Shown one piece after another: positions 164 to 59,739 of a stretch of DNA of 64,000 nt (position 1 is the first letter of the stretch; every line of letters starts with the position of its first letter). The stretch spans positions 3,348,001 to 3,412,000 of the forward strand of contig NC_014151.1 of NCBI RefSeq assembly GCF_000092865.1, written 5' to 3'. This stretch comes from Cellulomonas flavigena DSM 20109 (GTDB lineage: Bacteria > Actinomycetota > Actinomycetes > Actinomycetales > Cellulomonadaceae). Made by a program: the position numbers and the translations under genes. Under the pieces are notes generated by a model. The model was not told the origin of the DNA. It ran no database searches and saw nothing but the letters and a program-made list of their open reading frames with translations.

Positions 164-393
164 ACGCCGCCGACGCTAGCGCCGGCCCGCGGCGGTCGAC
201 CCGCCTGTCCGCACTCTGGACGCTCCCCTCCCGCGAGAGCTCCGCTCCACCCGCGAGACGTCGATCCAGCCCCACGTGTCCCAGCGGCCGGGACACCTCT
301 CCCGCGACACCGGGCTGCGGTGGCCCATCGAGTTCCGTGAGCGACGTGAGCCCGGTCTCGGGTGCACGTCGTCTTGCGATGCGGGCGGACGCG
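164..393. other. Intergenic spacer with one repeat copy
   Basis: No convincing gene is seen between the riboswitch and the XRE-cupin gene. The spacer carries one copy of the dispersed GGGCTGGA-type repeat in reverse orientation at 252-273. The stretch just before it (about 226-250) resembles a second, decayed copy. Confidence 0.6.
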
Positions 394-981
394 TCAGGCG
401 TCGCGGCGGCGGGGGCGGGCGCGCACGTGCATGCGCTCGCCCTGGGGCCCGTAGAGGGCGAGGACCTCGGTGGGGGTGCCGGACAGGTTGCCGAGCCAGT
501 GCGGCACGCGGGTGTCGAACTCGGCCGCCTCGCCCGCGACGAGGTCGAGCTCCCTGCCGCCCAGCACGAGCCGCAACGTGCCGTGCAGCACGTAGAGCCA
601 CTCGTACCCGTCGTGCACGCGCGGCTCCCCGACCTCGGGGGGCGTCCGCGGCGGGTAGACGAGCCGGTAGGCGCGCGGCCCCTCCGTGCGGCGGCTGAGC
701 GGCACCCAGGTGACGCCGTGCCGGACCGTGGGGTGCAGCGGCACGCGCGGGTCGTCGCCCGCGGGGACGTCGACGAGCTCGTCGATGGTCACCTCGTGGA
801 AGCGCGCGAGCGGCAGCAGGAGCTCGAGCGTCGGACGGCGCAGCCCGGACTCGAGGCGCGACAGCGTGCTGACGGAGATCCCGGTGACGACCGCGACGTC
901 CGCGAGCGTGGCCTCCCGCTGCTCGCGCAGGGCGCGCAACCGCGGACCGACGGTGTCGAGGACGGCAGCGAGGTCACCCAT
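394..981 (-). CDS. XRE family regulator with C-terminal cupin domain
   Basis: Predicted 195-residue regulator. The N-terminal 65 residues form a helix-turn-helix of the XRE type (a run with ATLADVAVVTGISVSTLSRL). The C-terminal half is a cupin barrel (HDGYEWLYVLHG, then GEAAEF and VPHW), the fold that usually senses a small effector in this family. The ATG at 981 is chosen because it places the palindrome at 991-1005 in the promoter; upstream in-frame ATGs at 990 and 1005 are possible. It is divergent from the flavoenzyme at 1048, which is probably its target. The effector is unknown. Confidence 0.82.
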   Translation of the reverse strand: MGDLAAVLDTVGPRLRALREQREATLADVAVVTGISVSTLSRLESGLRRPTLELLLPLARFHEVTIDELVDVPAGDDPRVPLHPTVRHGVTWVPLSRRTEGPRAYRLVYPPRTPPEVGEPRVHDGYEWLYVLHGTLRLVLGGRELDLVAGEAAEFDTRVPHWLGNLSGTPTEVLALYGPQGERMHVRARPRRRDA

Positions 982-990
982 GCCCGCCAT

Positions 991-1005
991 TTGCCATTGC
1001 GGCAA
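991..1005. promoter_or_regulatory. Palindromic operator in divergent promoter
   Basis: TTGCC and GGCAA are separated by five bases (TTGCCATTGCGGCAA). The site sits in the 66-base gap between the XRE-cupin gene and the flavoenzyme gene, just upstream of the regulator's start. It is a natural binding site for that regulator, but this is inferred from position only. Confidence 0.5.
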
Positions 1006-1047
1006 CGCCTCTTGTCAAGACGGCACGGCCGGAGCAGTCTCGTCCGC

Positions 1048-2007
1048 ATGGAGACCACCCCCGTCGACGTCCTCGTCCTCGGCGGCGGCGCCGCGGGGCT
1101 CGCCGCCGCGCTCACGCTCGGCCGTTCGCGCCGCAGCGTCCGCGTCCTCGACGCGGACGTGCCGCGCAACGCCACCTCACCGCACGCCCACAACCTGCTG
1201 ACGCGCGACGGCACGCCGCCCGGCGAGCTGCTCGCGATCGGCCGCGCCGAGGTCGCCCGGTACGGCGTCGAGGTGGTGACCGCACGCGTGACCTCGGCGC
1301 CACCCGCGGACGACGCGACCGGGGAACCCGCGTTCACGGTCGGCACCGCCGACGGCACGACGCACCGGGCGCGTCGCCTGGTCCTCGCGACGGGCATGCA
1401 CGACGTCCTGCCCGACGTCCCCGGCCTGGCCGAGCGGTGGGGCCGCGACGCGCTGCACTGCCCCTACTGCCACGGCTGGGAGGTGCGCGACCGCGCGCTC
1501 ACCGTGCTGGCGAGCGGCCCGCGCGCCGTCCACATGGCGCTGCTCGTCCGCCAGCTGAGCGCCGACGTCACGCTGCTGCTGCACGACGCGTTCGAGCCGA
1601 GCGCCGACGAGTGGGCGGACCTCGCCGCGCGTGGCGTGCGCGTCCTGCCCGGGCGCGTCGCCGGCGTGCGGGTCATCGACGACGCCCTCACCGGAGTGGT
1701 CCTCGCCGACGGTGACGTGGTGCCGTGCGACGCGGTGTTCGTCGGGTCGCGCGCCGTGCTCGACGACGTCGTCGTCGACGGCCTGGGCCTGGCGACCACG
1801 CCGCTGGAGCACCTCGGCGAGCGCATCGGGCGCGCCGTCACGGTCGACCCGACGGGCGCGACCTCCGTGACCGGCGTGTGGGCCGCGGGCAACGTCACCG
1901 GTCCGCAGCATGCGCTCGCCGCGAGCATCGCCGCCGGCTCCGCCGTGGGTGCGCACGTCAACGCCTCCCTCGTCACCTCCGACGTCGCCCGAGCCCGCAC
2001 CCGGTGA
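1048..2007 (+). CDS. Thioredoxin-reductase-like NAD(P)/FAD oxidoreductase
   Basis: Predicted 319-residue soluble flavoenzyme. The N-terminus has the FAD-binding fingerprint (VLVLGGGAAGLAAALTLGR), a redox CxxC in CPYCHGWE near residue 140, and a late FAD motif (GVWAAGNVT). This matches the thioredoxin reductase-like class II oxidoreductases that often lack a dedicated thioredoxin partner. ATG 1048 is chosen because the FAD motif starts a few residues later; the frame stays open further upstream, but that part is antisense to the regulator and has no such motif. It is divergent from the XRE-cupin regulator. The physiological substrate is unknown. Confidence 0.85.
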   Translation: METTPVDVLVLGGGAAGLAAALTLGRSRRSVRVLDADVPRNATSPHAHNLLTRDGTPPGELLAIGRAEVARYGVEVVTARVTSAPPADDATGEPAFTVGTADGTTHRARRLVLATGMHDVLPDVPGLAERWGRDALHCPYCHGWEVRDRALTVLASGPRAVHMALLVRQLSADVTLLLHDAFEPSADEWADLAARGVRVLPGRVAGVRVIDDALTGVVLADGDVVPCDAVFVGSRAVLDDVVVDGLGLATTPLEHLGERIGRAVTVDPTGATSVTGVWAAGNVTGPQHALAASIAAGSAVGAHVNASLVTSDVARARTR

Positions 2008-2061
2008 CCCGCTACCACCCCCTCCACCCCCTCCGAGGGGGTGTGCCGCCCCCCATGGCAG

Positions 2062-2240
2062 GGCTGGATCGACCTCTCGGGCAGGAACGGGGGCGACGCG
2101 GGCTGGATTGCTCTCTCACCGCGTGGCGAGAGGGCAATCCAGCACCACCCCAACCCGCGAGAGGCAATCCAGCCCCACCCCAACCCGCGAGAGGGCAATC
2201 CAGCCCCACCCCAGCCCGCGAGAAGTCGACCCAGCACCGT
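2062..2240. repeat. Cluster of six GGGCTGGA-family repeats
   Basis: The gap between the flavoenzyme and the methyltransferase is built almost entirely of one short repeat. Two forward copies begin near 2062 and 2099. Four reverse copies begin near 2127, 2156, 2187 and 2217. The reverse copies are spaced about 30 bases, joined by CACCCCAACC-like spacers. The second forward copy and first reverse copy form a hairpin (2102-2117 with 2128-2143, one mismatch, 10-base loop) that could terminate transcription. Confidence 0.85.
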
Positions 2241-2259
2241 CGGACGTCAGGAGACACCC

Positions 2260-2907
2260 GTGCCCGACCACCAGCACCACCACGCCCCCCACGACGCCCC
2301 CGCGCCGGGCGAGGAGCTCGACGCCGCGTGGTGGGAGGAGCGCTACCGGGCCCACGAGCGCCTGTGGAGCGGGCGGGTGAACGCGTCGCTCGCGGAGGTC
2401 GCCGCAGGCCTGACGCCCGGCACGGCGTTCGACGCGGGCGCCGGGGAGGGCGGCGACGCGGTGTGGCTCGCCGAGCGCGGGTGGCGGGTCACCGCGGTCG
2501 ACGCGTCACGGACAGCCCTCGACCGCGGCGCCGCCGAGGCCGCGCAGCGCGGCCTGGAGATCACGTGGACGCAGGCCGACCTGCGCACGTGGACCCCGCC
2601 CGCACGGTTCGACCTGGTGACGTCGCACTACCTGCACGCCGAGGGCGGACGCGGCTGGGCGTGGCTCGCGGACGCCGTCGCACCCGGCGGCACGCTGCTG
2701 GTCGTCGGGCACGACCCGTCGGACCTCGACGGCCCCGTGCCGCGCCCGCACCTGGCCCGGCTCGGGCACACGGCCGACGCCGTCGCGGCCGACCTCGACC
2801 CGGCGCGGTGGGTGACCATCGACCCGCGGGTCGTCGAGCGCACGATCACGCACGACGGTGTGGAGGTCCAGGTGCGGGACGCGGTGCTCGTCGCGCGGCG
2901 CCGCTGA
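2260..2907 (+). CDS. Class I SAM-dependent methyltransferase
   Basis: Predicted 215-residue protein. It has the Rossmann SAM-binding motif I (FDAGAGEGGDAVWLAERG), the acidic residue of motif II (VTAVDAS), and a motif IV-like stretch (FDLVTSHYLHAEGG). This fits the SAM-methyltransferase 11/25-like families, some of which methylate small metabolites or chalcogen oxyanions; the substrate cannot be read. The GTG at 2260 is chosen because AGGAG lies eight bases upstream. A histidine-rich N-terminus (HQHHHAPH) is notable. It lies directly after the repeat cluster and seems to be a single-gene unit. Confidence 0.82.
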   Translation: MPDHQHHHAPHDAPAPGEELDAAWWEERYRAHERLWSGRVNASLAEVAAGLTPGTAFDAGAGEGGDAVWLAERGWRVTAVDASRTALDRGAAEAAQRGLEITWTQADLRTWTPPARFDLVTSHYLHAEGGRGWAWLADAVAPGGTLLVVGHDPSDLDGPVPRPHLARLGHTADAVAADLDPARWVTIDPRVVERTITHDGVEVQVRDAVLVARRR

Positions 2908-2915
2908 CGCGGGGC

Positions 2916-2979
2916 GTCAGGCCGGCAGGGGCCCGGGTGCGTCAGGCCGGCAGGGGCCCGGGTGCGTCAGGCCGGCAGG
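2916..2979. repeat. 25-bp tandem duplication at 3' end of GH42 gene
   Basis: Two exact 25-base units (2916-2940 and 2941-2965) are followed by a third partial copy of 14 bases (2966-2979). The third copy contains the stop codon and last codons of the beta-galactosidase gene. The array therefore looks like a local duplication of the gene's terminus into the downstream gap. Confidence 0.85.
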
Positions 2980-4928
2980 TCCGTGAGCACCTGCGCGTCG
3001 TGCGGCCCGAGGTGCAGCACGCGCCCCGCGAGCGCCAGCGTGCGCGGCGCGCCGGTGTGGTTGACGACGACGAGCCGGTCCCCGCGCCGCACGGCCTCGA
3101 CGCCCTCGACCGGTGAGGGGAAGAGCGCGGGAACGTCGGCGTCGGTGAGCAGGCGGTCGACGAGCGCGTCGAGGACGCGCGCGGACGGCTGCGTGCCGAC
3201 GTACCAGGCGACGCCGTCCCCGTGCTCGCGCCGGGTCACGGCCGGTCCGCCCGCGGCGTACCCGTCGTCGAACGTGGCGACCACCTCGGCGTCGTCGACG
3301 ACGAGGACGTCCTGCCACAGCGACGCCTCGCCGGCGAGCTCGCCGGTCAGGCGCAGCGGACCACCGGGCGACCCGTCGGGTCCCGCGGTGGGTGCGAGCT
3401 CCTCGACGCGCACACCGAGCGTCGCGCGCAGCGGGCCCAGGTAGCCGCCGAGGTAGACGTGCAGGTCCTCGTCCAGCACCGCCGTCGCGTACGTCACGAC
3501 GAGGTTCCCGCCGGCGCGGACGTACGCGTCGAGGGCGTCGAGGTGCGCGGCGCGCGCGACGTGCAGCAGGGGCACGACGACCAGGTCGTACCCCACGACG
3601 TCGGCCCCGGCGGGCACGACGTCGACGGTGACGCCGCGGCGCAGGAACGGCGCGTACCAGTCGAGGAACCGCTCGACGTACGCCACGCGCGTCGGCGTGG
3701 CGTCCTGCTCGAGCGCCCACCAGGAGTCCCAGTCGAGGACGATCGCGACGTGCGCGGCGACGCGCGCGCCGACGAGGTCGCCGAGCCGCGCGAGCTCGTC
3801 GCCCAGCGCGCACACGTCGTGGAACGCCCGCGAGTCCGGGCCGGCGTGCGGCACCAGCGCCGAGTGGAACTTCTCGGCGCCCGCGGCGGACTGCCGCCAC
3901 TGGAAGTGCAGGATGCCGTCGGCACCGCGAGCGACGGCCTGCAGCGAGTGCGCGCGGTGCTGGCCGTGCGGCCGCGGGGCGTTGCGCGGCCGCCAGTTCA
4001 CGGCGCTCGGCGACTGCTCCATGAGCAGCCACGGCCGCCCCTCCCCGAGGCCGCGCATGAGGTCGCGCTGCGCGGCGAGCCGCACGTGCGCCTGCGGGTC
4101 ACCCGGGTCGGGGTAGGCGTCGTCGCTGACGACGTCGACGTAGGGCGCCCACGCCCAGTAGTCCGCGTCGGGGAAGAAGCCCATGAAGTTCGTCGTGATC
4201 GGCACGTCGGGGCTGTGGCGGCGGATGACCTCGGACTCGGCGCGGTGCAGCGCGAGCAGCGCGTCGGACGTGAAGCGGCGGAAGTCGAGCTCCTGCGTGG
4301 GGTTGCGGAACGTCGGCGCGGCGGCGGGCGCGCCCACCTCGTCGAACGACGAGTAGCGCTGCGACCAGAAGTCCGTACCCCACGCGCGGTTGAGCTCGTC
4401 GACCGTGCCGTACCGCGTCTCGAGCCACGCCCGGAACGCGGCCACGGTGTGCGCGTCGTACGACCGCGCGACGTGGCAGCCGTACTCGTTGTTGACGTGC
4501 CACATCTCCAGCGCGGGGTGGTCCGCGTAGCGGGCCGCGAGCTGCTCGACGAGGGCGAGCGCGTGCCGCCGGTAGTCCGGTGACGACGGCGAGTAGTGCT
4601 GCCGCGACCCGAACCCCAGCCGGACACCGTCCTGCGTCACGGGCAGCGCGTCCGGGTAGCGCGCCACGAACCACGCGGGTGGCGACGCGGTCGCCGTCGC
4701 CAGCACCACACGCACCCCGCCGTCGTGCAGCCGCGCGAGCACGTCGTCGAGCCACCCGAGGTCGTACTCCCCCGGTGCGGGCTCGAGGCGCGACCACGAG
4801 AAGACCCCGACCGTCGCCGTGGTGACGTGCGCGGCGCGCATCAGCCGCACGTCCTCGTGCCACACGTCCTGCGGCCACTGCTCCGGGTTGTAGTCGGCGC
4901 CGTAGCGGATGCGGGCGTCACCGGGCAC
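2967..4928 (-). CDS. GH42 beta-galactosidase
   Basis: Predicted 653-residue intracellular glycosidase without a signal peptide. It starts with the family hallmark RYGADYNPEQWP. The catalytic pair is visible: acid/base Glu148 in WHVNNEYGCH and nucleophile Glu304 in WLLMEQSPSAVNW. A trimerization-like domain and a small C-terminal beta domain follow, as usual for GH42. The GTG at 4928 is chosen because AGGAGG sits five bases upstream. It probably cleaves beta-galactosides (galactan fragments or lactose-like disaccharides) in the cytoplasm. It is divergent from the orphan ABC ATPase. Confidence 0.93.
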   Translation of the reverse strand: MPGDARIRYGADYNPEQWPQDVWHEDVRLMRAAHVTTATVGVFSWSRLEPAPGEYDLGWLDDVLARLHDGGVRVVLATATASPPAWFVARYPDALPVTQDGVRLGFGSRQHYSPSSPDYRRHALALVEQLAARYADHPALEMWHVNNEYGCHVARSYDAHTVAAFRAWLETRYGTVDELNRAWGTDFWSQRYSSFDEVGAPAAAPTFRNPTQELDFRRFTSDALLALHRAESEVIRRHSPDVPITTNFMGFFPDADYWAWAPYVDVVSDDAYPDPGDPQAHVRLAAQRDLMRGLGEGRPWLLMEQSPSAVNWRPRNAPRPHGQHRAHSLQAVARGADGILHFQWRQSAAGAEKFHSALVPHAGPDSRAFHDVCALGDELARLGDLVGARVAAHVAIVLDWDSWWALEQDATPTRVAYVERFLDWYAPFLRRGVTVDVVPAGADVVGYDLVVVPLLHVARAAHLDALDAYVRAGGNLVVTYATAVLDEDLHVYLGGYLGPLRATLGVRVEELAPTAGPDGSPGGPLRLTGELAGEASLWQDVLVVDDAEVVATFDDGYAAGGPAVTRREHGDGVAWYVGTQPSARVLDALVDRLLTDADVPALFPSPVEGVEAVRRGDRLVVVNHTGAPRTLALAGRVLHLGPHDAQVLTDLPA

Positions 4929-5139
4929 GAAGACCTCCTGGGCGGCTCGTCGCCCGCGGGGCGGAGCCGCACCGGCCTCGTCGCCGTCCGGCCCCGGGTG
5001 CGCGCAGCGGCGACTGGGACGTTGCCCGTGCACGCTAGCACCGGACCGATCACGGGATCAGGCCGTCCGGGCCGTACGTTGGGTCCAGGAGGAAGGCCGT
5101 CCCCACGGCGCCCACGACGAGACGAGACGAGCAGCACGC

Positions 5140-5919
5140 ATGAGCAGCACCCCCGCAGTCCTCGAGGCCACCGACGTCTGGGCGGGGTACGGCGGCCCGC
5201 CCGTGCTCGCGGGCGTCGACCTGACCCTGCGGCCCGGCGAGGCCGTCGGCCTGCTCGGCCGCTCGGGCGTCGGCAAGTCGACGCTCGTCGAGATCCTCGG
5301 GGGCGGGCAGCGGCCCACGCAGGGGCACGTGACGTTCGACGGCGCGCCCGTGGCGAAGACCCCGCGCCGGCGCCGCAAGGACGTGCGGGCCCGGCTGCGC
5401 ACGGTCCACCAGAACGGCATCGCGGGCGTCGACGTGCAGCGCACGGTCGAGGAGACGATCCTCGACGCGTTCAAGGAGGCCCGGAAGGCCGGCCGGACCA
5501 CGGACAACGACGTGGAGGCGGCGCTCGCCGTCGTCGCGCTGCCCATCCGGTTCGTCACGCGGCGCGTCGGCACGCTGTCCGGTGGTGAGCGGCAGCGGGT
5601 GGCCATCGCGCGGGCGCTCGCGACGCGTCCGGACCTGCTGCTGCTCGACGAGCCGCTGACGGCGGTGGAGCAGACGCTGCGCGAGGAGGTCGCCGACGAG
5701 ATCCGTGCCCTGGTCCGCAAGGACGGCATCGGCCTGCTCGTCGCGTCGCACGACCTGCGCCTGCTGGAGCGGCTGACGGAGCACGTGCTGGTGCTCGCGG
5801 AGGGCACGATCGTGGAGTCCGGACCGCTGCGCTCGGTCCTGCAGGACCCGCAGCACCCGGACACCCGAGCCCTGGTGGAGGCGCTGCCGGACGTGGCGGC
5901 GGGCCGCCCGCCGCGCTGA
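5140..5919 (+). CDS. ABC transporter ATP-binding protein, orphan
   Basis: Predicted 259-residue ATPase. Walker A is GRSGVGKST (40-48), the signature LSGGERQR starts at residue 146, and Walker B ends at Asp170-Glu171 (LLLLDEP). The tail (HPDTRALVEALP) resembles the end of oligopeptide or nickel transporter ATPases of the DppF/OppF type. No permease or binding protein gene is adjacent, so it either works with subunits encoded elsewhere or has another role. A strong terminator follows at once, which supports a single-gene unit. Confidence 0.85.
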   Translation: MSSTPAVLEATDVWAGYGGPPVLAGVDLTLRPGEAVGLLGRSGVGKSTLVEILGGGQRPTQGHVTFDGAPVAKTPRRRRKDVRARLRTVHQNGIAGVDVQRTVEETILDAFKEARKAGRTTDNDVEAALAVVALPIRFVTRRVGTLSGGERQRVAIARALATRPDLLLLDEPLTAVEQTLREEVADEIRALVRKDGIGLLVASHDLRLLERLTEHVLVLAEGTIVESGPLRSVLQDPQHPDTRALVEALPDVAAGRPPR

Positions 5920-5937
5920 GCCGACGCCGCGCCGGCT

Positions 5938-5975
5938 CCGGGGCCCCACGACGCGCGGGCGGCGTGGGGCCCCGG
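5938..5975 (+). terminator. Terminator after ABC ATPase gene
   Basis: A perfect stem of 12-13 pairs (CCGGGGCCCCAC at 5938-5949 with its complement at 5964-5975) and a loop of about 12 bases lies 18 bases after the stop codon. There is no T-tract, as is common in high-GC actinobacteria. Confidence 0.75.
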
Positions 5976-6103
5976 CGCGTCCCGAGGCGCCGAGAGGGGA
6001 AGCGTCGGCCCTCGGGACGAGGGCGGGGGGCGCTCCGGGGGAACGGACCGGGCGGCCCCCCGCGCCGCCCGGTCCTCCCGGGTCCGAGACTCCCGGGCCC
6101 CGT

Positions 6104-6140
6104 CGGTCCACCTCACCTGCCGTCGACGGTGGGTGGACCG
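6104..6140 (-). terminator. Terminator after xylanase gene
   Basis: CGGTCCACC (6104-6112) pairs with GGTGGACCG (6132-6140). A second helix lies inside around the palindromic CCGTCGACGG. The hairpin begins 16 bases beyond the GH10 stop codon. Confidence 0.65.
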
Positions 6141-6155
6141 GGGTCCGTGCCCGGC

Positions 6156-8648
<2,493 letters not shown>

Positions 8649-8765
8649 TCACCCTCTCTGCGAGCACCCTCGGGTGGTCCCGGGGTGGCGAACGGAGGAC
8701 GTCCGGCGGGGCGTCGTCGTCCCGTCGAGCGTCGGGCGGGCACCGAGGCCCGGGTCGAACGGTGA

Positions 8766-30032: not shown

Positions 30033-30186
30033 CGCGAGACGTCGATCCAGCCCGCCCACCTGGGGCTGGAACGACGGCTCACGCACCAGGGAAGAGGGGC
30101 TCACCAACGAAGAGGGGCTCACCAACACCCCTCCCGCGAGACGTCGATCCAGCCCCACCGCGCGAGGGCTGGATCGACGTCTCGCG
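30033..30186. repeat. GGGCTGGA-family repeats with perfect 21-bp inverted pair
   Basis: Four copies lie in the 190-base gap between convergent operons: reverse at 30033-30053, a forward variant at 30062-30084, reverse at 30135-30156 and forward at 30166-30186. The last two are perfect complements over 21 bases with a loop of about 10 bases, a very stable hairpin that can terminate from both sides. An 18-base direct repeat (30091-30108 and 30109-30126) lies between them. Confidence 0.88.
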
Positions 30187-42460: not shown

Positions 42461-42513
42461 CGGACGGGGCCTCGCGCGCCCAGGGCGGGACTGGATCGCT
42501 CTGGCCCCGTCCG
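42461..42513. terminator. Bidirectional terminator
   Basis: CGGACGGGGCC (42461-42471) pairs perfectly with GGCCCCGTCCG (42503-42513), one base after the membrane protein stop. It also lies 22 bases past the GNAT gene's stop on the other strand. The loop contains a decayed GGGCTGGA-type repeat (around 42487-42503). Confidence 0.7.
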
Positions 42514-43121: not shown

Positions 43122-43293
43122 GGGAGTGCTCTCTCACGCACCTGGTGGTGGCGTCGGGCCGAGTTGCCCTCTCACGCACCTCGGGCGGGCACGCACCTTG
43201 GGCGGGCACGGGCTGGATTGCTCTCTCGCGCCCCAGGGACGGGACGGCGGACGGGCTGGATCGGCCTCTCGTGGTGAGAGGGCGATCCAGCCC
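43122..43293. repeat. GGGCTGGA-family repeat cluster
   Basis: Five units lie in the gap between the GNAT and GH43 genes: two decayed forward units (ends CTCTCACGC near 43122 and 43157), forward copies from about 43210 and at 43253, and a reverse copy ending at 43293. The last two form a hairpin with 18-base arms (43253-43270 and 43276-43293, one mismatch, 5-base loop) placed 25 bases after the GH43 stop, a likely terminator of the hemicellulose operon. Confidence 0.82.
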
Positions 43294-50923: not shown

Positions 50924-50928
50924 ATCCC

Positions 50929-52218
50929 TCACTCCTTGGCCGCGGCGGCGGTCACGGTGTCGACGATGCTCTGGGCGTCGCCCTGACCCGCGAGCATCTC
51001 GACGACCGCGGTGTTGAGCGCGTTGCCGACGTTCTGCCCGAACAGGGTGTCGAGCCAGACCGTCACGTACGCCGCGTCGTCGTACGCCGCGAGGATGTCC
51101 TTCAGCGCCGGGTCCGTCACGACGTCCTGCGCGTCCTTGCTCGCCGGCAGGGACACGAACGCCTCGGCGAAGTCCTCCTGGTTCTCCTTGAGGATGAGGA
51201 AGTTGAGGAACTCCGCGCACTCCGGCGGCGCGTCGACGTGGCAGCTCAGACCGTCGATACCGCCCATCATCGCCGTCGGGTCGCCCTGGCCGCCCTCGAC
51301 CTCGGGGAACGGGAACCAGCCGAGGTCCGCCAGCGGCTCGCCGTCCGGCGTGAGCCCGCCGATGACCCCCGGGTTCCAGGCGCCCATGAGCTCCATGGCC
51401 GCCTGGTGGTTGGCGACCAGGCCCGCGGACGACCCGGCGCCCTGCTGCGCCGTCGTCGTGAGGAAGCCCTCGTTGAACGGCTCGACGCCCGCGAACTCCT
51501 CGAACGCCTGCCCCGCCTCCAACCAGCACGGGTCGTCGAACGTGCGCTCGACGGCGACCTTCTCGAGCGTCTCCTGCGAGCACGCGCGCAGCGCGAAGAA
51601 GTAGTACCAGTGAGCCGCCGGCCAGGCGTCCTTGCCACCCAGCGCGATCGGCGCGACGCCGGTGCCCTTGAGCTTCTCGACCGCGTCGACCAGCTGGTCG
51701 ACCGTCGTCGGGGTCGACTCGATGCCGGCCGCCTCGAACAGGTCCTTGCTGTAGAAGATGCCGCCCGGCAGCACGGCGGTCGGCATGCCGTAGACCTTGC
51801 CGTCGATCGTGTACGCGTCGAGCGAGCCGCCCAGCGCCTCGCGCGACGCGTCGTCGACGAGGTCCGTGAGGTCCATGATCTGACCGGCCGCCACCATGTC
51901 GGCGAGCTTGCCGCCGCCGCGCGCCATGAAGATGTCCGGCGCGTCGCCGCCGTTCAGGGCCGTCTGGAGCTTGCCGTCCATCTCCTCGTTCTGGACGACC
52001 TGCAGCGTGATCTCGACGCCCGGGTTCGCGTCCTCGAACGCGGCGGCCACGTCCTCCTGGAACTTCTTGCCGTCGTCGGTGGTCGCGTTGTGCCAGAACG
52101 TCATCTGCACGGTGCCGCCGTCGCCGCCGTCGCCCGTGTCGCCCCCGCTGCACGCCGCGAGCGCCAGCGCGCCCGCGAGCACGGCGGCCGACGCCGCCCA
52201 CGTCCTCGATGCCCTCAT
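50929..52218 (-). CDS. Paralogous sugar-binding lipoprotein without permeases
   Basis: Predicted 429-residue extracellular solute-binding protein, nearly co-linear with the 49280-50563 product. The lipobox ending in LAAC gives Cys23; QMTFWHNATTDDG, ALNGGDAPDIFMARGGGKL and GIFYSKDLFEAAG match its paralog block by block. ATG 52218 follows AGAGGA. A strong terminator separates it from the operon and no permease is adjacent. It probably delivers a related sugar to the same permeases. Confidence 0.92.
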   Translation of the reverse strand: MRASRTWAASAAVLAGALALAACSGGDTGDGGDGGTVQMTFWHNATTDDGKKFQEDVAAAFEDANPGVEITLQVVQNEEMDGKLQTALNGGDAPDIFMARGGGKLADMVAAGQIMDLTDLVDDASREALGGSLDAYTIDGKVYGMPTAVLPGGIFYSKDLFEAAGIESTPTTVDQLVDAVEKLKGTGVAPIALGGKDAWPAAHWYYFFALRACSQETLEKVAVERTFDDPCWLEAGQAFEEFAGVEPFNEGFLTTTAQQGAGSSAGLVANHQAAMELMGAWNPGVIGGLTPDGEPLADLGWFPFPEVEGGQGDPTAMMGGIDGLSCHVDAPPECAEFLNFLILKENQEDFAEAFVSLPASKDAQDVVTDPALKDILAAYDDAAYVTVWLDTLFGQNVGNALNTAVVEMLAGQGDAQSIVDTVTAAAAKE

Positions 52219-52389
52219 CAGATGTCCTCTTCGTCGAGCCAGCTGATCCCCGGACGGCGCCCGGGTGCCCCCTGCCGTCGGTTGCGGCACCGGCGGCGCA
52301 CCCCTGGGCACGTGGCGCCCCTCGTCGGACGCCCGCCGGCCGCACCTGCGTCTCCTCGGCGGCCGGGACGACTCTCGCAGGCGGGGAGA

Positions 52390-52401
52390 TGTAACGTCAA
52401 A
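52390..52401. promoter_or_regulatory. Shared operator, copy 2
   Basis: TGTAACGTCAAA here matches the 50743 site in 11 of 12 bases and also shares the AGA before it. It lies 172 bases upstream of the second binding-protein start. Confidence 0.55.
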
Positions 52402-52420
52402 CACTGCGTCTCCCGGCATG

Positions 52421-52458
52421 CCGAAGGCCCCGCTCCCTCGCGGGGCCGGGGCCTTCGG
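52421..52458 (-). terminator. Terminator after clpC
   Basis: CCGAAGGCCCC (52421-52431) pairs with GGGGCCTTCGG (52448-52458), with an inner CCCG/CGGG helix. It lies 24 bases after the clpC stop codon. Confidence 0.75.
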
Positions 52459-52481
52459 GTGGGGCTCGGCGGGCGCTGCGG

Positions 52482-55058
52482 TCAGGCGGGCGCGAGGCCC
52501 GTGCCGCTGTCGCCCCGGGCGGGTGCAGGAGCAGGCGGGACGTCGGTGCCCGAGCCCGGCGTGCCGACGGGCGCGCCGACCGTGACCGGCTCCTTGGCGG
52601 CGGTGCGGCGCGGGACGCCCTGGAAGAGGAACTCCCCGAGCAGGCCCTCGCCCTGGGCGTCGACGATGACCGTCTGACCCGCCTTGAGCTCGCCGAACAG
52701 GATCTTCTCGGACAGCGTGTCCTCGATCTCCCGCTGGATCGCGCGGCGCAGCGGACGCGCACCGAGGACCGGGTCGTAGCCCCGCTCCGCGAGCAGCTTC
52801 TTGGCCGCCGGCGTGATCTCGATGCTCATGTCCTTGTCGCGCAGACGGGCGTCGAGCTTCGCGATCATCAGGTCGACGATCTGGAAGATCTCCGGCTGCG
52901 AGAGCTGCGGGAAGACGACCACGTCGTCGACACGGTTGAGGAACTCGGGACGGAAGTGCGTCTTGAGCTCGTCGTTGACCTTGGCCTTCATGCGCTCGTA
53001 GTCCGTCGCGAGCTCGCCACCGGCCTGGAAGCCGGTCATGACGCCCTTCGCGATGTCCCGCGTGCCGAGGTTCGTGGTCATGATGATGACGGTGTTCTTG
53101 AAGTCGATGACGCGGCCCTGCGAGTCGGTCAGGCGACCGTCCTCGAGGATCTGCAGCAGCGAGTTGAAGATGTCCGCGTGGGCCTTCTCGACCTCGTCGA
53201 ACAGCACGACGGAGAACGGCTTGCGGCGCACCTTCTCGGTGAGCTGACCGCCCTCGTCGTACCCGACGTAGCCGGGGGGCGAGCCGAACAGGCGCGAGAC
53301 CGTGTGCTTCTCCGAGAACTCCGACATGTCGAGCTGGATGAGCGCGTCCTCGTCCCCGAAGAGGAACTCGGCGAGCGCCTTGGCCAGCTCGGTCTTCCCG
53401 ACGCCCGTGGGGCCGGCGAAGATGAACGACCCACCGGGGCGCTTGGGGTCCTTGAGGCCGGCACGCGTGCGGCGGATGGCCTGCGACAGCGCCTTGATGG
53501 CGGCGTTCTGGCCGACGACCCGCTTGTGGAGGTTCTCCTCCATGTGCAGCAGGCGGCTGGACTCCTCCTCGGTGAGCTTGAACACCGGGATGCCGGTGGC
53601 GTTCGCCAGCACCTCGGCGATGAGCTCCTCGTCGACCTCGGCGACGGCGTCCATGTCGCCGTTCTTCCAGGCCTTCTCCTTCTCGACGCGCTTGAGGCCG
53701 AGCTGCTTCTCCTGGTCGCGCAGGCGCGCGGCCTTCTCGAAGTCCTGCTCGTCGATCGCGGACTCCTTGTCGCGGCGCGTCTCGGCGATCTGCTCGTCGA
53801 GCTCGCGCAGCTCCGGCGGGGCCGTCATGCGGCGGATGCGCAGGCGCGCGCCCGCCTCGTCGACGAGGTCGATCGCCTTGTCCGGCAGGTAGCGGTCGTT
53901 GACGTACCGGTCGGCCAGCGTCGCGGCGGCGACCAGCGCGGCGTCCGTGATGGACACGCGGTGGTGCGCCTCGTACCGGTCGCGCAGGCCCTTGAGGATC
54001 TCGATCGCGTGCTGCAGGTTCGGCTCGGAGACCTGGATGGGCTGGAAGCGCCGCTCCAGGGCCGGGTCCTTCTCGACGTACTTGCGGTACTCGTCGAGCG
54101 TGGTCGCACCGATGGTCTGCAGCTCGCCGCGCGCCAGCATGGGCTTGAGGATCGACGCGGCGTCGATCGCGCCCTCGGCCGCACCCGCGCCGACGAGCGT
54201 GTGGATCTCGTCGATGAACAGGATGATGTCGCCGCGCGTGCGGATCTCCTTGAGGACCTTCTTCAGGCGCTCCTCGAAGTCACCGCGGTAGCGGGAGCCG
54301 GCCACCAGGGCGCCGAGGTCGAGCGTGTAGAGCTGCTTGTCCTTGAGCGTCTCCGGCACGTCGCCGCGGACGATGTCCTGCGCGAGGCCCTCGACGACCG
54401 CCGTCTTGCCGACGCCCGGCTCACCGATGAGCACCGGGTTGTTCTTGGTGCGGCGGGACAGCACCTGCATGACCCGCTCGATCTCCTTCTCGCGCCCGAT
54501 GACCGGGTCGAGCTTGCCGTCGCGGGCCGCCTGCGTGAGGTTGCGGCCGAACTGGTCGAGGACGGCCGACCCCGACGGCTGCCCCTCGGCCGGGCCGCCC
54601 GAGGCGACCGGCTCCTTGCCCTGGTAGCCCGAGACGAGCTGGATGACCTGCTGGCGCACCCGGTTGAGGTCGGCGCCGAGCTTGTTGAGGACCTGGGCGG
54701 CGACGCCCTCGCCCTCGCGGATCAGGCCGAGCAGGATGTGCTCGGTGCCGATGTAGTTGTGGCCGAGCTGCAGCGCCTCGCGCAGCGACAGCTCGAGGAC
54801 CTTCTTGGCGCGCGGCGTGAACGGGATGCGACCCGACGGGGCCTGCTGGCCCTCGCCGATGATCTCCTGCACCTGCGCGCGCACGGCCTCCAGGGAGATG
54901 CCGAGCGACTCCAGGGCCTTGGCCGCGACACCCTCACCCTCGTGGATCAGGCCCAGGAGGATGTGCTCGGTGCCGATGTAGTTGTGGTTGAGCATCCGCG
55001 CCTCTTCCTGGGCGAGGACGACCACGCGACGGGCTCGGTCCGTGAATCTCTCGAACAT
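52482..55058 (-). CDS. clpC: ATP-dependent chaperone ClpC
   Basis: Predicted 858-residue AAA+ unfoldase. Two N-terminal Clp repeats (each with [14 protein letters not shown]) lead to AAA domain 1 (GEPGVGKT, then [11 protein letters not shown]), a middle domain with a UVR-like stretch ([18 protein letters not shown]), and AAA domain 2 ([21 protein letters not shown]). The ClpP-docking LGS/LGF-type loop region lies in domain 2. ATG 55058 is chosen over GTG 55064 because GAGGAG has better spacing. It feeds substrates to ClpP1P2 and is essential in many actinobacteria. Upstream lies a candidate ClgR box. Confidence 0.97.
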
Positions 55059-55383
55059 GTGCACTCCTCACGAGCGGCGTGCCCCGGTGGCCTCGCGCAG
55101 CAGGCGTCCGCGCGGAGCCGACGAAGCGGCGTGTTTCGATGCTAACGGCGGGGTCATGCCCGGACGTCCCGTGTTCGCCGCAGGCGGAGAGGCCCGCGGT
55201 CCTCCGCAGGAATCGGCTCGCCGGCGCGCAACCCCGAGCGCTGACCCGGGCGATCTCGTCCACCAGCGGCGAAGCTCGCCCGGAACCGTGCACCGCGTCA
55301 GGTGCGCACGTGCCTCGACAGCGCAGGCGACTCCCACCGTCGACGAACTGGGCGAGCGCAACGAGCGCTGCCCGGGGTCGGGT
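55059..55383. other. clpC promoter gap
   Basis: This 325-base gap separates clpC from the convergently placed end of vapC. The clpC side holds a -10-like TAGCAT (55139-55144, minus strand) and a ClgR-like box. The remaining part (about 55200-55383) shows nothing I recognise. Confidence 0.5.
55172..55190 (-). promoter_or_regulatory. Candidate ClgR box upstream of clpC
   Basis: TTCGCCGCAGGCGGAG contains CGC, five bases, GCG, close to the ClgR consensus. It lies 28 bases upstream of the -10-like TAGCAT, where this activator binds at other clp promoters. Confidence 0.45.
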
Positions 55384-55812
55384 TCAGAATGTGACGACCT
55401 GGGCGGTCGTGCAGCCATCGGCAGCCAGAAGGTGCCAGTACGCGTCGCGAGTGACGACCCGGACCCCGAGGCGTTCGGTCACCGCGAGCACGAGCGCATC
55501 CCCGAGAGAGAGGGTCTCGCCTCCCGGCCCAGGATGCGTCTTCGCCGCTTCCAGGAGCGCCGCAGCACGGAGGAGGTCGTCGTCCAGCGGGTGCTCGATG
55601 CGCGCACCGAACGACAGGAGGGTGTCGCGAACTTCATGACCCGACGACGCATTGCCCTTGCGGCGCACGAGCTCAACGAGCTCGGTCAGCACCGGCCCTG
55701 GCATCACGGGCTCGACGTCGGCGCGCGCAAGGAGCTTGTCGACCACCTGCCACTGCGGTTCTTGAAGCACCCACGTCGCGAGGACGGAAGTGTCGAAGCA
55801 GACCGCGCTCAC
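55384..55812 (-). CDS. vapC: VapC-type PIN-domain toxin
   Basis: Predicted 142-residue PIN-domain ribonuclease. The acidic residues expected of the metal site are Asp7 (CFDTSVLA), Glu44 (LTELVEL), Asp105 (SLGDALVLAV) and Asp123 (VVTRDAYWHL). The GTG start overlaps the stop of the antitoxin gene by four bases. VapC toxins cut tRNA or rRNA when free of antitoxin. It appears intact. Confidence 0.9.
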   Translation of the reverse strand: MSAVCFDTSVLATWVLQEPQWQVVDKLLARADVEPVMPGPVLTELVELVRRKGNASSGHEVRDTLLSFGARIEHPLDDDLLRAAALLEAAKTHPGPGGETLSLGDALVLAVTERLGVRVVTRDAYWHLLAADGCTTAQVVTF

Positions 55813-56162
55813 AGGCCGAGGTCGACGACGAGGCCGGCGATGATCTCCTCATCGCTGCGCGTCTCCGCAGCGGCACGAGCAGCGATCCTGCGCTCTGCGG
55901 CCTCGTCGACGTGCTGGTCCACCGCGCGAGACGCACGCACGTCACGGGTGGAGTCCCCGGCGTCACCCCCGTGGTTCTGCGCCCACAGCGCCATCGCCCG
56001 CATGCGGGGCGTCACGAGGCGAACCGCGTCACCCTCGACGACAAACTCGACCCGGTCGCCGCTGGCGATCCTGAGTGCTCGCCGGACCTCGACGGGGACC
56101 ACCACCCGTCCTTGTGCGTTCACGGTCCCGAAGTGGGAGGACACAGCATCTAGGGATGACAC
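55809..56162 (-). CDS. vapB: AbrB/MazE-type antitoxin
   Basis: Predicted 117-residue antitoxin. The N-terminal swapped-hairpin DNA-binding motif is FGTVNAQGRVVVPVEVRRALRI, followed by DRVEFVVEGDAVRLVTP. The C-terminal half is charged and Ala-rich and should wrap the toxin. The GTG at 56162 is preferred because a strong promoter would start transcription next to it, giving a leaderless message. TTG 56171 or GTG 56144 are alternatives. It probably represses its own promoter through the palindrome at 56155-56182. Confidence 0.82.
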   Translation of the reverse strand: MSSLDAVSSHFGTVNAQGRVVVPVEVRRALRIASGDRVEFVVEGDAVRLVTPRMRAMALWAQNHGGDAGDSTRDVRASRAVDQHVDEAAERRIAARAAAETRSDEEIIAGLVVDLGL

Positions 56163-56199
56163 ATGACTCAATATATGTCATCTCGGAGCAACCTGTCAC
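56155..56199 (-). promoter_or_regulatory. vapBC promoter with palindromic operator
   Basis: On the minus strand GTGACA (56199-56194) and TATATT (56175-56170) are spaced 18 bases, a good sigma-70-type promoter. GATGACA (56155-56161) and TGTCATC (56176-56182) form an inverted repeat that brackets the -10 box, so bound antitoxin would block it. Confidence 0.65.
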
Positions 56200-56358
56200 C
56201 AGCGCGATCGGCGGATCGGCGGCAGCGCGGGACGCGCGGGGAACCTCGATCGGCGCACAGACGTTCTGGTCTGCGCGACCGGGCGTTCCGGTAGCGTGAC
56301 CAGGGCCGTCGGCGTCCGACGGCACCCGCGCCGCGTGCGCCTCCCAGGAGGACCTTCG

Positions 56359-57576
56359 ATGACCGAGCCCACACCTCTGCAGCCGCCGGCGCCCAGCGCC
56401 GCGTTCGCGCTCGAGGCACCCGCACCCGTCGCCCCCGTCGCGACGCACGACGCCCCGGCGATGGCGCCGCGCGTCGACCCGGCTGCGCTGCCGGGCCTGG
56501 ACGCGAAGGTCGGCGCGTTCCTCGCGGGTCTGGACGACGTGCAGGCCGGGTCGCCGGAGTTCGCGGCGAAGGCCGACGACGTGCGGCTCATGGGCGACAA
56601 GGACGTGCGCGCCGCGGCGGACACCTCCAACCGCCTGCTGCAGGTGCCGGTGCGCGAGCTGCGCGAGGGCGGCGTCTCCGGGACGTCGCAGGTGAGCAAG
56701 TCGCTGCTCGACCTGCGCCGCACGGTCGAGGACCTCGACCCGTCGGAGAAGACCGTGGGCAAGAAGCTGCTCGGCTTCCTGCCGTTCGGCGACAGCCTCA
56801 CCGACTACTTCCGCCGCTACGAGTCGTCGCAGAAGCAGATCGACGCGATCGTCAAGGCGCTGTACCGGGGCCAGGACGAGCTGCGCAAGGACAACGCGGC
56901 GCTCAACCTGGAGAAGCAGAACCTGTGGGACACCATGGGCCGGCTCAACCAGTACATCTACGTCGCGAGCCAGCTCGACCAGCAGCTCTCCGCCAAGATC
57001 GCCCAGGCGGAGATCAGCGACCCCGACCGCGCGCGGGCGCTGCGCGAGGACGTCCTGTTCTACGTCCGGCAGAAGCACCAGGACCTGCTCACGCAGCTCG
57101 CGGTGTCGATCCAGGGGTACCTGGCGATCGACATCATCATCAAGAACAACATCGAGCTCATCAAGGGCGTCGACCGCGCGACGACGACCACGGTCTCGGC
57201 GCTGCGCACCGCGGTGCTCGTCGCGCAGGCGCTCAACAACCAGAAGCTCGTGCTCGACCAGATCACGGCGCTGAACACCACGACGTCGAACATGATCGCG
57301 TCGACGTCCAAGCTGCTGCGCGAGCAGTCGGTGGCGATCCAGCAGCAGGCCGCGAGCGCGACGATCGGGCTCCCGCAGCTCCAGCAGTCGTTCACCGACA
57401 TCTTCGCGGCCATGGACTCCATCGACACGTTCAAGGTGCAGGCGCTGGACTCGATGGCGCAGACCGTCGGCGTCCTGGAGACCGAGACGGCCAAGGCCAA
57501 GCAGTACCTCGACCGCGTCTCGCGCTCGGACCGCACGGACGTCGCGAGCGGGTCGCTCGACCTGGGCCTGAGCTGA
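56359..57576 (+). CDS. TelA/toxic anion resistance family protein
   Basis: Predicted 405-residue protein dominated by long alpha-helices (coiled coil, about 140-390). Segments such as KKLLGFLPFGDSLTDYFRRYESSQKQIDAIV and LFYVRQKHQDLLTQLAVSIQGYLAIDIIIKNN are typical of the TelA family, first named for tellurite resistance but of unclear biochemical role. It has no signal peptide. ATG 56359 has AGGAGG seven bases upstream. It opens a cluster that continues to PknG, with a 25-base gap to the next gene. Confidence 0.9.
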   Translation: MTEPTPLQPPAPSAAFALEAPAPVAPVATHDAPAMAPRVDPAALPGLDAKVGAFLAGLDDVQAGSPEFAAKADDVRLMGDKDVRAAADTSNRLLQVPVRELREGGVSGTSQVSKSLLDLRRTVEDLDPSEKTVGKKLLGFLPFGDSLTDYFRRYESSQKQIDAIVKALYRGQDELRKDNAALNLEKQNLWDTMGRLNQYIYVASQLDQQLSAKIAQAEISDPDRARALREDVLFYVRQKHQDLLTQLAVSIQGYLAIDIIIKNNIELIKGVDRATTTTVSALRTAVLVAQALNNQKLVLDQITALNTTTSNMIASTSKLLREQSVAIQQQAASATIGLPQLQQSFTDIFAAMDSIDTFKVQALDSMAQTVGVLETETAKAKQYLDRVSRSDRTDVASGSLDLGLS

Positions 57577-57601
57577 CGACGACCGGGGAGGTGAGCGGCA
57601 G

Positions 57602-58117
57602 GTGAGCGCGCTGGGCGACCTCGTCGCGCGTCTGCTCGGCCGCGCGCCCCGGCACGTCGTGCAGATCGAGGAGGACCCGGTCCCCACGGCGGAGCAGATC
57701 GCGACCGCCGTGCGCGACGTCGAGACGTCGATCGAGGGCCGGGTGCCCGCGGCCGTCACGGCGCGCGTGCACCGCATCACGGGCACGGTCGAGGACATGG
57801 TGCCGAGGCTCGACCGGTTCGGGATCGGCGACCGGCAGGCGTACACCGTGGTCGCGACGGCCACGAGCTACCTGCCCGAGGCCGTCGAGAACTACCTGCG
57901 CCTGCCGCGCGACTTCGCCGACCGGCGCGTCGTGGCGCAGGGCAAGACGTCCCTCATGCTGCTGTGCGACCAGCTCGACCTGCTGGCCCTGACGCTGGAG
58001 AAGATCTCCGACGCCGTGTCGCGGGCCGACGCGCAGGCGCTCGTGGCGCACGGGCAGTTCCTCGCCGAGAAGTTCGGGCACTCGTCGCTGGACGTGCCCG
58101 GGACGGGAGCCCTGTGA
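57602..58117 (+). CDS. Conserved-looking helical protein, 171 aa
   Basis: Predicted 171-residue protein, mostly helical, with no signal peptide. An Arg-rich N-terminal segment (LLGRAPRHVVQIEEDP) is followed by helices around VHRITGTVEDMVPRL and LLCDQLDLLALTLEKI. I do not recognise a family. It lies between TelA and the AAA ATPase, overlapping the latter by four bases (GTGA), which implies a shared function. Confidence 0.72.
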   Translation: MSALGDLVARLLGRAPRHVVQIEEDPVPTAEQIATAVRDVETSIEGRVPAAVTARVHRITGTVEDMVPRLDRFGIGDRQAYTVVATATSYLPEAVENYLRLPRDFADRRVVAQGKTSLMLLCDQLDLLALTLEKISDAVSRADAQALVAHGQFLAEKFGHSSLDVPGTGAL

Positions 58118-59739
58118 GCACCGCCGACACGCTGGCCGCCGGCCTCGACGCCCTGGTCGCCGCGGGCGTCGCCGCCGGGCTGCCCGCGGCGGACGTGCGC
58201 GACGAGGGCGAGCGGCTGGCCGCCGCGGTCGCGGAGTCCGTCACGGGTGCGGGTCCGGCGTGGCTCGGCGCGCTCGGGCGCCCGCAGGACGACCTGGCCG
58301 GGTTCTTCGCCGCGGCGTCGTCCGCCCGCCGCTGGCGGCACGCGCCGACGGACCTGCTCACGTCGCTCGTCGGCGCCGGCTCGCCGCACGCGCCCGCGTA
58401 CGCCGAGGCGCTCGCACACGTCGCGTCGGCCGCGTGCGACCTGGGCGAGCCGAGCATCCAGGTGGTCGCGGCCGCGTCCGTCACGGCCGCCGTCCAGCGC
58501 TCCGCCGCCGCCCTCCCCACCACCCCGACCGCCGACCCGCCGACCTCCCCCCAGGGCGCGAGCCGTCACTCCAGCCCCGCGGCCCCAGGGCTCGATCGAC
58601 GTCTCGACGGAGAGGTGGGGGGCGCCGGAGAGGTGGGGGGTACCTCTTCCACGGGGGCGAGCCGTCATTCCGGCCCCACCCCCGCCCTCTCGACCCCCGG
58701 CCCCACGGGCTCGGACGGTCGGCCCGCGCCCGCGGCGCCGCCGGAGAAGACGTTCGAGGAGCTGCTGGCCGAGCTCGACGCGCTCGTCGGGCTGGACCGC
58801 GTCAAGCGCGAGATCCGGCAGCAGGCGGAGGTGCTGCGCGTCGAGCGGCTGCGCGCCGACGCGGGCCTCACGCGCCCGTCGCTGACGCGGCACCTGGTGT
58901 TCGTCGGCAACCCGGGCACCGGCAAGACGACGGTCGCGCGGCTCGTCGCCGGGCTGTACCGCGCGCTCGGGCTGCTGGAGAAGGGCCACCTCGTCGAGGT
59001 CGACCGCTCCGAGCTCGTCGCCGGTTACCTCGGGCAGACCGCGACCAAGACCACCGAGGTCGTCACGAAGGCGCTCGGCGGCGTGCTGTTCATCGACGAG
59101 GCGTACTCGCTGGCGGACGACCAGTACGGCGCCGAGGCCGTGAACACGCTGGTCAAGGACATGGAGGACCACCGCAGCGAGCTCGTCGTCATCGTCGCGG
59201 GCTACCCGTTGCCGATGGCGCGGTTCCTGTCGACCAACCCCGGCCTCGAGAGCCGGTTCGCGACGACCGTCGCGTTCGACGACTACACCGACGCGCAGCT
59301 CCGCGAGATCTTCGCGCTCGCCGCGCGCAAGGCGGACTTCGAGCCGTCGCCCGAGGCCCTGGACCTCGTCGAGCAGATCGTCGCCGCACAGCCGCGGCAC
59401 GAGGGCTTCGGCAACGGGCGCCTCGCGCGCAACCTGCTCGACCGCGCGGTGCTCAAGCACGCGTGGCGCCTGCGGGACGTGCCCGAGCCGACCGTCGAGC
59501 AGCTGCGGACCCTGCTGCCGGAGGACCTCGCGACCGACGTCGAGGACGTCGCCCCCGACCTGCCGGTCCCGGGTGCCGACGCGCCGGTCACGGGTGCGCC
59601 CGGCGACGACCTGGCGAGCGACGACGCGGCGAGCGACGACGTGCCGCCCGGCGCACCGGACGACGACCCGAGCGACGCCTCCCCCACCCCCGGCGACCCC
59701 GCCGTCACCGACCCGGCCCACCCCGAGGAGCCCGTGTGA
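58114..59739 (+). CDS. CbbX/SpoVK-like AAA ATPase with repeat-derived linker
   Basis: Predicted 541-residue AAA+ ATPase. A helical N-terminal domain (1-140) and a low-complexity linker (about 145-215) precede the AAA domain (about 215-480). Walker A is GNPGTGKTT (265-273) and Walker B ends at Asp328-Glu329 (VLFIDEAYS). A Cys-free, Asp/Pro-rich acidic tail ends the protein. CbbX-type ATPases remodel partner proteins. The linker coding sequence at 58556-58681 contains three pieces of the dispersed GGGCTGGA-family repeat. Both ends overlap neighbours by four bases. Confidence 0.88.
   Translation: MSTADTLAAGLDALVAAGVAAGLPAADVRDEGERLAAAVAESVTGAGPAWLGALGRPQDDLAGFFAAASSARRWRHAPTDLLTSLVGAGSPHAPAYAEALAHVASAACDLGEPSIQVVAAASVTAAVQRSAAALPTTPTADPPTSPQGASRHSSPAAPGLDRRLDGEVGGAGEVGGTSSTGASRHSGPTPALSTPGPTGSDGRPAPAAPPEKTFEELLAELDALVGLDRVKREIRQQAEVLRVERLRADAGLTRPSLTRHLVFVGNPGTGKTTVARLVAGLYRALGLLEKGHLVEVDRSELVAGYLGQTATKTTEVVTKALGGVLFIDEAYSLADDQYGAEAVNTLVKDMEDHRSELVVIVAGYPLPMARFLSTNPGLESRFATTVAFDDYTDAQLREIFALAARKADFEPSPEALDLVEQIVAAQPRHEGFGNGRLARNLLDRAVLKHAWRLRDVPEPTVEQLRTLLPEDLATDVEDVAPDLPVPGADAPVTGAPGDDLASDDAASDDVPPGAPDDDPSDASPTPGDPAVTDPAHPEEPV
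58556..58681. repeat. Dispersed repeat pieces inside coding sequence
   Basis: Three repeat-like segments begin near 58556 (a GAGCCGTCACTCCAGCCCC run), 58588 (GGGCTCGATCGACGTCTCG) and 58657 (GAGCCGTCATTCCGGCCCC). They match the intergenic units at 30062 and 30166 with few changes. All lie in frame in the ATPase linker (about residues 148-190), where they code for GASRHSSP-like peptides. Confidence 0.75.

Follow-up and report, generated by a model that had tools for sequence, protein, structure and literature searches.

Introduction

Several described repeat systems come close to the one reported here. Loci of the mycobacterial interspersed repetitive unit–variable number tandem repeat (MIRU-VNTR) type share with it dispersed actinobacterial sites that carry variable-number tandem arrays; MIRU units are longer and have a small reading frame. 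Rickettsia palindromic elements (RPEs), which are palindromic, longer and from another phylum, share its in-frame presence in unrelated proteins. Repetitive extragenic palindromic (REP) sequences and REPINs have in common with it high-copy short intergenic repeats, inverted doublets, tandem clusters and populations particular to each genome, and the spread of REP-type repeats is explained via REP-associated tyrosine transposases (RAYTs; Bertels and Rainey 2011, PMC3116915). GTAG- and CGTC-tagged repeats are stem-loop palindromes with an end tag; in PMC3733652, CGTC repeats are said to lack a dedicated transposase, repeats are reported in coding regions (two traits shared by our family), RPEs in coding genes are mentioned, and the word actinobacteria is absent from the main text. 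The literature compared also includes PMC2267715. Here we describe a 21–base pair (bp) unit that recurs in a window of 64,000 nucleotides (nt), positions 3348001-3412000 of the single-contig, 4123179-base genome of Cellulomonas flavigena DSM 20109. This genome is called G000, and other G-numbers denote compared genomes; among the relatives, G029 is C. iranensis NBRC 101100, G007 is Cellulomonas sp. B6, G019 is C. avistercoris and G016 is the Cellulomonas isolate N5CT.

We consider the units to be, with a probability of roughly 0.6, a population of short interspersed repeats, non-autonomous and specific to one clade, under concerted evolution. REPIN-like behavior without a known mobilizer is the best reading of the family. 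Its interest lies in a high copy number in an actinobacterial genome without a RAYT, and in a likeness across dispersed loci that is visible even in protein-coding loops. Because such a family exists without a RAYT, the inter-locus copying of tiny repeats becomes testable by comparing close strains.

A dispersed family of 21-bp units

A preliminary description of the window proposed a dispersed and possibly undescribed repeat family, and both parts of that proposal stand. The pattern GGGCTGGAN7CTCNCG matches G000 60 times, and its reversed form twice (two of the 60, at 354780 and 1800027, have unrelated middles and are probably chance); GGGCTGGA alone has 22 matches against 2.8 expected. A search allowing two mismatches gave 235 matches against 220 in the control. 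Because this total was no better than the control, its two-mismatch rows were left unused; its one-mismatch rows helped to choose stretches. We fetched 37 stretches of G000 around pattern matches, which together with the window comprise 365 kb, and called units with an iterated, ungapped weight matrix at a threshold of at least 14 bits. This yielded 169 units, grouped into 54 clusters that each contain between 1 and 17; the reversed sequence gave 2. Since the stretches were chosen for holding matches, the genome-wide total may exceed 169. Within the window, 17 sites reach the threshold, compared with a mean of 0.27 and a maximum of 3 in 100 dinucleotide shuffles. A few of the 169 units are likely chance matches. 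One of these lies at 63770 in the window and was dropped because it is conserved coding sequence in G427.

Units are present at all five window loci first proposed (252-272, 2061-2237, 30033-30186, 43210-43293 with a decayed unit at 43156, and 58557-58676; Table 1), and the singletons, tandem series of about 30 bp and inverted pairs seen there at the outset were all recovered. A further decayed copy, claimed near 42487, scores below 9 bits. At the Rfam gathering threshold, the window has no match at the units, and its sole match is to a thiamine pyrophosphate (TPP) riboswitch. The open literature, searched by words and by unit 16-mers, did not yield a description of the family.

The G000 consensus is GGGCTGGATCGACGTCTCGCG, with limited variants, followed by a linker of about 10 bp in which a G-rich stretch begins at approximately the fifth base past the unit. 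TCGACGG and TCGACGT are the commonest middles (86 of 169 units). The unit had been described as a variable middle between constant ends, a layout that does not survive the larger sample: variation runs along the whole unit, with middle positions nearly fixed (G10 in 168/169, C12 in 160/169) and positions within the supposedly constant start variable (T4 in 123/169, G5 in 145/169). The impression of a variable middle arose because the search began from a fixed GGGCTGGA. Neighboring direct units lie 30 to 33 bp apart in 99 of 197 cases across all species scanned, most commonly 31 to 33 bp, with further values at about 40 to 43 and 53 bp. A single spacing dominates many arrays, as is expected of local tandem duplication. 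Both orientations occur in 23 of the 54 clusters; 14 are direct arrays and 17 are single units. Inverted pairs are found in both senses, head-to-head and tail-to-tail.

Beyond G000, the family is also found in other Cellulomonas species. Searching one genome per species (84,980 species) returned at least 119 stretches; among the 80 stretches listed, all records with multiple matches were Cellulomonas, and single matches in other genera were taken as chance. Five of 396 genomes of the order had a match, and control matches occurred in none. Three of these five, counting G000, belong to the genus of the window; the other two come from a different genus of the family and each carry a single identical site. 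Oerskovia genomes have one unit-like site, whose upstream flank is the same in three loci; it is probably a lone conserved site rather than a member of the family. In single-contig relatives, GCTGGATYGNNCTCTCNC matches 140 times in G427, 64 in G428, 15 in G003 and 3 in G430, with no control matches.

Orthologous regions differ in whether they hold units. At locus C of the window, units occur in G000, G003, G428, G430, G427 and G019, and at contig edges in G016, with middles that differ between most unit-bearing species; in G029 and G007 this region has no unit with fewer than four mismatches, and other hairpins are seen by eye. At locus B, units occur in G000 and G427; G430 lacks them, as do G003, G428 and G019, where the intergenic regions are 7, 13 and 29 bp. 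Another tandem region has units in G019 and G428; its counterpart in G003 is 48 bp and contains a remnant at most (G003 and G019 are 92% identical overall). A plasmid or phage origin of locus B was rejected, as it had no match in a plasmid collection and none in a phage collection. Locus C coincides with contig breaks in G016 and G436, and one C. iranensis contig starts 10 bases before a unit. Given such breaks at units, the arrays seem to disrupt short-read assemblies, and thus matter in practice.

Copies resemble one another within species

Units from different loci of one species are more alike than units from the same locus in different species. Across 28 species-locus cells, the mean core distance is 2.80 for the same species at different loci and 3.53 for the same locus in different species, and when species labels were permuted inside each locus, a value at least as low as the real one came up in 1 of 2000 permutations. 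The commonest middle is TTGCTCT in G427, and TTGCTCT and TTGCACT in G428. In the coding loops described below, the same species-wise grouping is apparent by eye. That each species tends to have its own version of the unit at shared places suggests that copies keep overwriting one another. Such replacement, if real, is incomplete, as loci B and D of G000 still have middles of the TTGCTCT or TTGCCCT type that is common in relatives.

Within G000, direct neighbors differ by 1.66 core mismatches, compared with 3.44 for random units of different loci. Inverted neighbors differ by 3.40 and 3.63 mismatches, or by 2.25 and 2.55 when an array at 787 kb is left out. That array (787313-787854) alternates between plus and minus units, 17 in all, with a double period of about 62 to 66 bp, and adjoins a Helicase_C_3 protein.

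Units inside coding genes

Five well-supported G000 genes hold units in frame (genes were called with a custom codon-usage script, not a standard program, and their starts are approximate). They encode an HrpA-type helicase (DUF3418), an Acyl_transf_3 protein with units near its C-terminal end, an amidase, a heavy-metal P-type ATPase (E1-E2_ATPase and HMA domains) that we take to be copper-type, and the AAA ATPase of the window.

Two of these loops were followed across genomes. The metal-ATPase loop holds units in 8 of the 14 mapped genomes, where it is 102 to 318 nt long and has units in both orientations; in the other six it has none, and measures 93 nt in G430 and 54 to 63 nt in the remaining five. 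Its length is a multiple of three in all 14 (the G016 loop includes an assembly gap). The amidase loop contains units in three of eight mapped genomes. Mapping failed for G007 at the metal ATPase, and for G019 and G011 at the amidase.

Possible routes of spread and homogenization

In the model that we favor, the repeating entity is a 21-bp core plus a G-rich linker of about 10 bp. Units would gather where they do least harm, namely in tolerant protein loops and in intergenic regions, convergent ones among them, that keep clear of divergent promoters. They would expand locally by tandem duplication, inverted pairs being present as well, and the current variant of each species would displace its predecessors from locus to locus, a process of concerted evolution. 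Copying between loci might be the work of a mobilizer, or G-rich stretches might promote recombination or template switching; all of these routes fit the data. Inverted pairs might incidentally end or protect transcripts. Of 44 intergenic regions with units, 21 contain canonical G-quadruplex motifs, compared with 23 of 137 that lack units. Where a cluster has a single orientation, the motif is on the unit strand in nine cases and on the other strand in one. A more specific version, in which a sequence-specific, non-RAYT copying system spreads the unit, rewrites copies (including genic ones, as in the metal ATPase) to the species variant and spares the terminus, is a tentative possibility, less likely than not.

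Several observations weigh against a repeat population under concerted evolution. Neither a search for Y1_Tnp nor Pfam annotation of 38 of 98 neighboring genes and five host genes identified a mobilizer. No target-site duplication can be defined, because the compared relatives are 83 to 92% identical. Selection by a species-specific DNA-binding protein would homogenize sites too, and the scarcity of units near the terminus, described below, does not follow from a repeat-population model. Inverted neighbors are no more alike than random units when the 17-unit array is counted, and intermediate without it. Furthermore, loci in G427, G428 and G003 were picked with a CTCTC pattern that favors their own variant; a search with a free middle gave the same contrast with fewer copies.

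Placement and a possible role in transcription termination

Most loci were originally described as lying next to gene 3' ends, with a possible role as terminators. The 3'-end placement holds insofar as convergent regions are strongly preferred over divergent ones; it fails at 58557-58676, which lies inside the coding gene 58114-59739. The 54 clusters of G000 comprise 15 in convergent, 23 in tandem and 7 in divergent regions, 6 called in genes (one a weak call) and 3 at stretch edges. In 40 loci of named species and five 70-kb stretches of relatives, clusters were convergent in 17 cases, tandem in 26, divergent in 4, genic in 2 and at an edge in 11, whereas the intergenic regions lacking units numbered 35, 146 and 83 in the convergent, tandem and divergent classes (odds ratio of convergent to divergent 10, P = 1.3 × 10−5). 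A further 59 stretches of G427, G428 and G003 had 30 convergent, 36 tandem, 3 divergent, 2 genic and 2 edge clusters, against 16, 85 and 48 other convergent, tandem and divergent regions (odds ratio 30, P = 2.7 × 10−10). Only ratios between classes can be interpreted, since the presence of units was the reason for picking the stretches.

This placement is what would be expected if the units worked as transcription terminators or as hairpins at 3' ends, perhaps dependent on Rho, and were selected at gene ends. Strong folds are obtained for three inverted pairs in the window (−37 to −46 kcal/mol), C enrichment on the transcript strand is greater where tandem regions hold units (0.123 versus 0.030), and clusters in tandem regions were more often antisense than sense to the upstream gene, 16 to 5 (three ties) and then 20 to 4 (two ties). 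However, a pre-specified test of this orientation in new loci was not significant (18 to 10, eight ties, P = 0.18), so that we regard it as a leaning and not an established rule. In G000, just 39 of 67 units in tandem regions are nearer the upstream stop than the next start, a weak leaning. Both orientations are lacking in 31 of the 54 clusters, units are found inside coding genes, and orthologous regions do without them. Canonical intrinsic terminators were rejected as an explanation: a scan for hairpins followed by T-runs from 27 to 46 kb, covering two window loci, gave two sites where 2.3 were expected, neither at units, and no T-run was seen in the three inverted-pair tails examined. A terminator function as the reason for the family is therefore rather unlikely in our view, and the repeat-population reading remains preferred.

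Among the genes beside the units, those examined are mostly ordinary metabolic and housekeeping genes; five neighbors have no Pfam match. By Pfam, no transposase family was found among 38 of 98 immediate neighbors and the five host genes. In one fetched stretch (L052), a gene with an AbiEi-type antitoxin domain (3509-4429, minus strand) sits between two unit clusters.

Scarcity near the terminus

Units are scarce around the terminus in three species. dnaA lies at about 1.4 to 1.7 kb in the five genomes checked, and the scarcity is on the side of the chromosome opposite to it. In G000, 5 of 37 pattern clusters fall in the terminus-proximal 37.5% (P = 0.002); two of all 37, including one of those five, look like chance. 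The 13 clusters of G003 show the same scarcity (Kolmogorov-Smirnov test, P = 0.005), and on the right arm of G427, 3 of 27 clusters among the matches listed lie beyond 0.6 of the arm (its left arm and G428 fell outside this test). In G428, two loci are located at 1.87 Mb, among the matches listed. Five 20-kb terminus samples held no unit. A shortage of convergent regions was rejected as the cause, as there are 1.40 per 10 kb at the terminus and 1.41 in the window. Unconserved DNA was likewise rejected for two 20-kb terminus stretches, of which about 15 to 16 kb each is colinear and 83 to 89% identical in four relatives; the rest is 67 to 71% identical or unmatched in some relatives.

This scarcity raises the question of whether the units are putative binding sites for a chromosome-organizing protein that are kept from the terminus. 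Noc, SlmA and MatP sites are the natural comparison. Head-to-head spacings in the fetched Cellulomonas loci, at about 21, 31, 41, 52 and 62 bp as if in 10-bp steps, are consistent with such a role, and they fit a 10.5-bp period (P = 0.0016 in the first set and 3 × 10−6 in new loci; 9 × 10−6 with one value per cluster), a fit that was not pre-specified. Tail-to-tail spacings do not (P = 0.45). Helical phasing of direct repeats was considered and rejected: the first set gave P = 3.5 × 10−4, with a broad period scan whose maximum was 11.5, but the pre-specified 10.5-bp test failed in new loci (P = 0.16). Moreover, the unit sequence is species-specific, and the pattern counts given above vary widely among relatives, from 3 in G430 to 140 in G427. 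We thus regard an organizing protein as a doubtful explanation for the family.

Possible neutral descent and known repeat systems

The units might also be neutral leftovers of an old repeat that spread once, with likeness within species due to common descent and local slippage. One dominating spacing per array does suggest local slippage, and several loci are common to different species. Yet descent predicts grouping by locus, and the distance test groups units by species, in agreement with the coding loops by eye, which makes this very improbable. A classical REP/REPIN family moved by a RAYT is the least credible of all, unless the transposase has diverged past the reach of the Pfam model. 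Units are numerous, lie mainly between genes, form inverted pairs and also occur in genes, but these traits are offset by a single unit that, with its linker, folds at just −6.1 kcal/mol on one strand and −1.6 on the other, and by the absence of Y1_Tnp (PF01797) from G000 and from the unit-bearing genomes G003, G007, G016 and G019.

A search for a REP-associated tyrosine transposase had been suggested along with the preliminary description. The search covered 35 genomes and found Y1_Tnp in G004 only; G427, G428, G430 and G029 were outside it. In its traits, our family is high-copy and mainly extragenic (169 units in 54 clusters, with six genic calls, one weak). As to inverted doublets, 23 clusters have both orientations, beside the 14 direct arrays and 17 single units. 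Unlike REP/REPIN sequences, its single unit is non-palindromic and forms no imperfect-palindrome hairpin, the genome has no Y1 transposase, and there are many direct arrays at 31 to 33 bp with G-rich linkers. With a non-palindromic single unit, no Y1 transposase and no T-runs in the scanned part, the family falls outside both REP/REPIN sequences and canonical intrinsic terminators.

Other systems also differ. By inspection, neither the consensus nor its variants have a terminal GTAG or CGTC tag by a stem-loop; CGTC is internal in the Cellulomonas unit and present in some variants only, mainly in G000. With a commonest spacing of 31 to 33 bp, the repeat lacks the longer unit of MIRU, for which we know of no species-wise homogenization across inverted pairs and coding loops, although we made no search for it. 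Miniature inverted-repeat elements derived from insertion sequences would be expected to have the terminal inverted repeats of a parent element and target-site duplications; the 38 neighbor and five host genes above include no transposase family, and duplications are not resolvable at 83 to 92% identity.

Features of the window

Table 1. Repeat units in the window, with strand and weight-matrix score.
Feature	Position	Strand	Remarks
Single unit GGGCTGGATCGACGTCTCGCG	252..272	-	34.6 bits
Unit, locus B	2061..2081	+	29.0 bits
Unit, hairpin left arm, locus B	2100..2120	+	22.1 bits; hairpin −37.3 kcal/mol
Unit, hairpin right arm, locus B	2125..2145	-	23.4 bits
Unit with one-base deletion, locus B	2155..2175	-	Missed by ungapped matrix; read from sequence, pattern match
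Unit, tandem period 31, locus B	2186..2206	-	27.4 bits; period 31 at 2126-2238
Unit, tandem period 31, locus B	2217..2237	-	23.3 bits
Unit, locus C, convergent intergenic region	30033..30053	-	34.6 bits
Unit, locus C	30063..30083	+	29.9 bits
Unit, left arm of head-to-head hairpin, locus C	30135..30155	-	34.6 bits; hairpin −46.1 kcal/mol
Unit, right arm of head-to-head hairpin, locus C	30166..30186	+	34.6 bits
Decayed unit, locus D	43156..43176	+	10.6 bits
Unit, TTGCTCT variant common in relatives, locus D	43210..43230	+	24.6 bits
Unit, left arm of tail-to-tail hairpin, locus D	43253..43273	+	22.4 bits; hairpin −43.4 kcal/mol
Unit, right arm of tail-to-tail hairpin, locus D	43273..43293	-	25.1 bits
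Unit in coding gene 58114-59739 (AAA ATPase), locus E	58557..58577	-	27.4 bits; reading frame; Pfam AAA, AAA_lid_6
Unit in coding gene 58114-59739, locus E	58588..58608	+	24.6 bits; reading frame
Unit in coding gene 58114-59739, locus E	58656..58676	-	25.0 bits; reading frame

The TPP riboswitch lies at 72-166 on the minus strand and scores 70.1 bits against a cut-off of 54.3. Locus C also contains a perfect 18-bp direct repeat at 30091-30126 that is unrelated to the unit.

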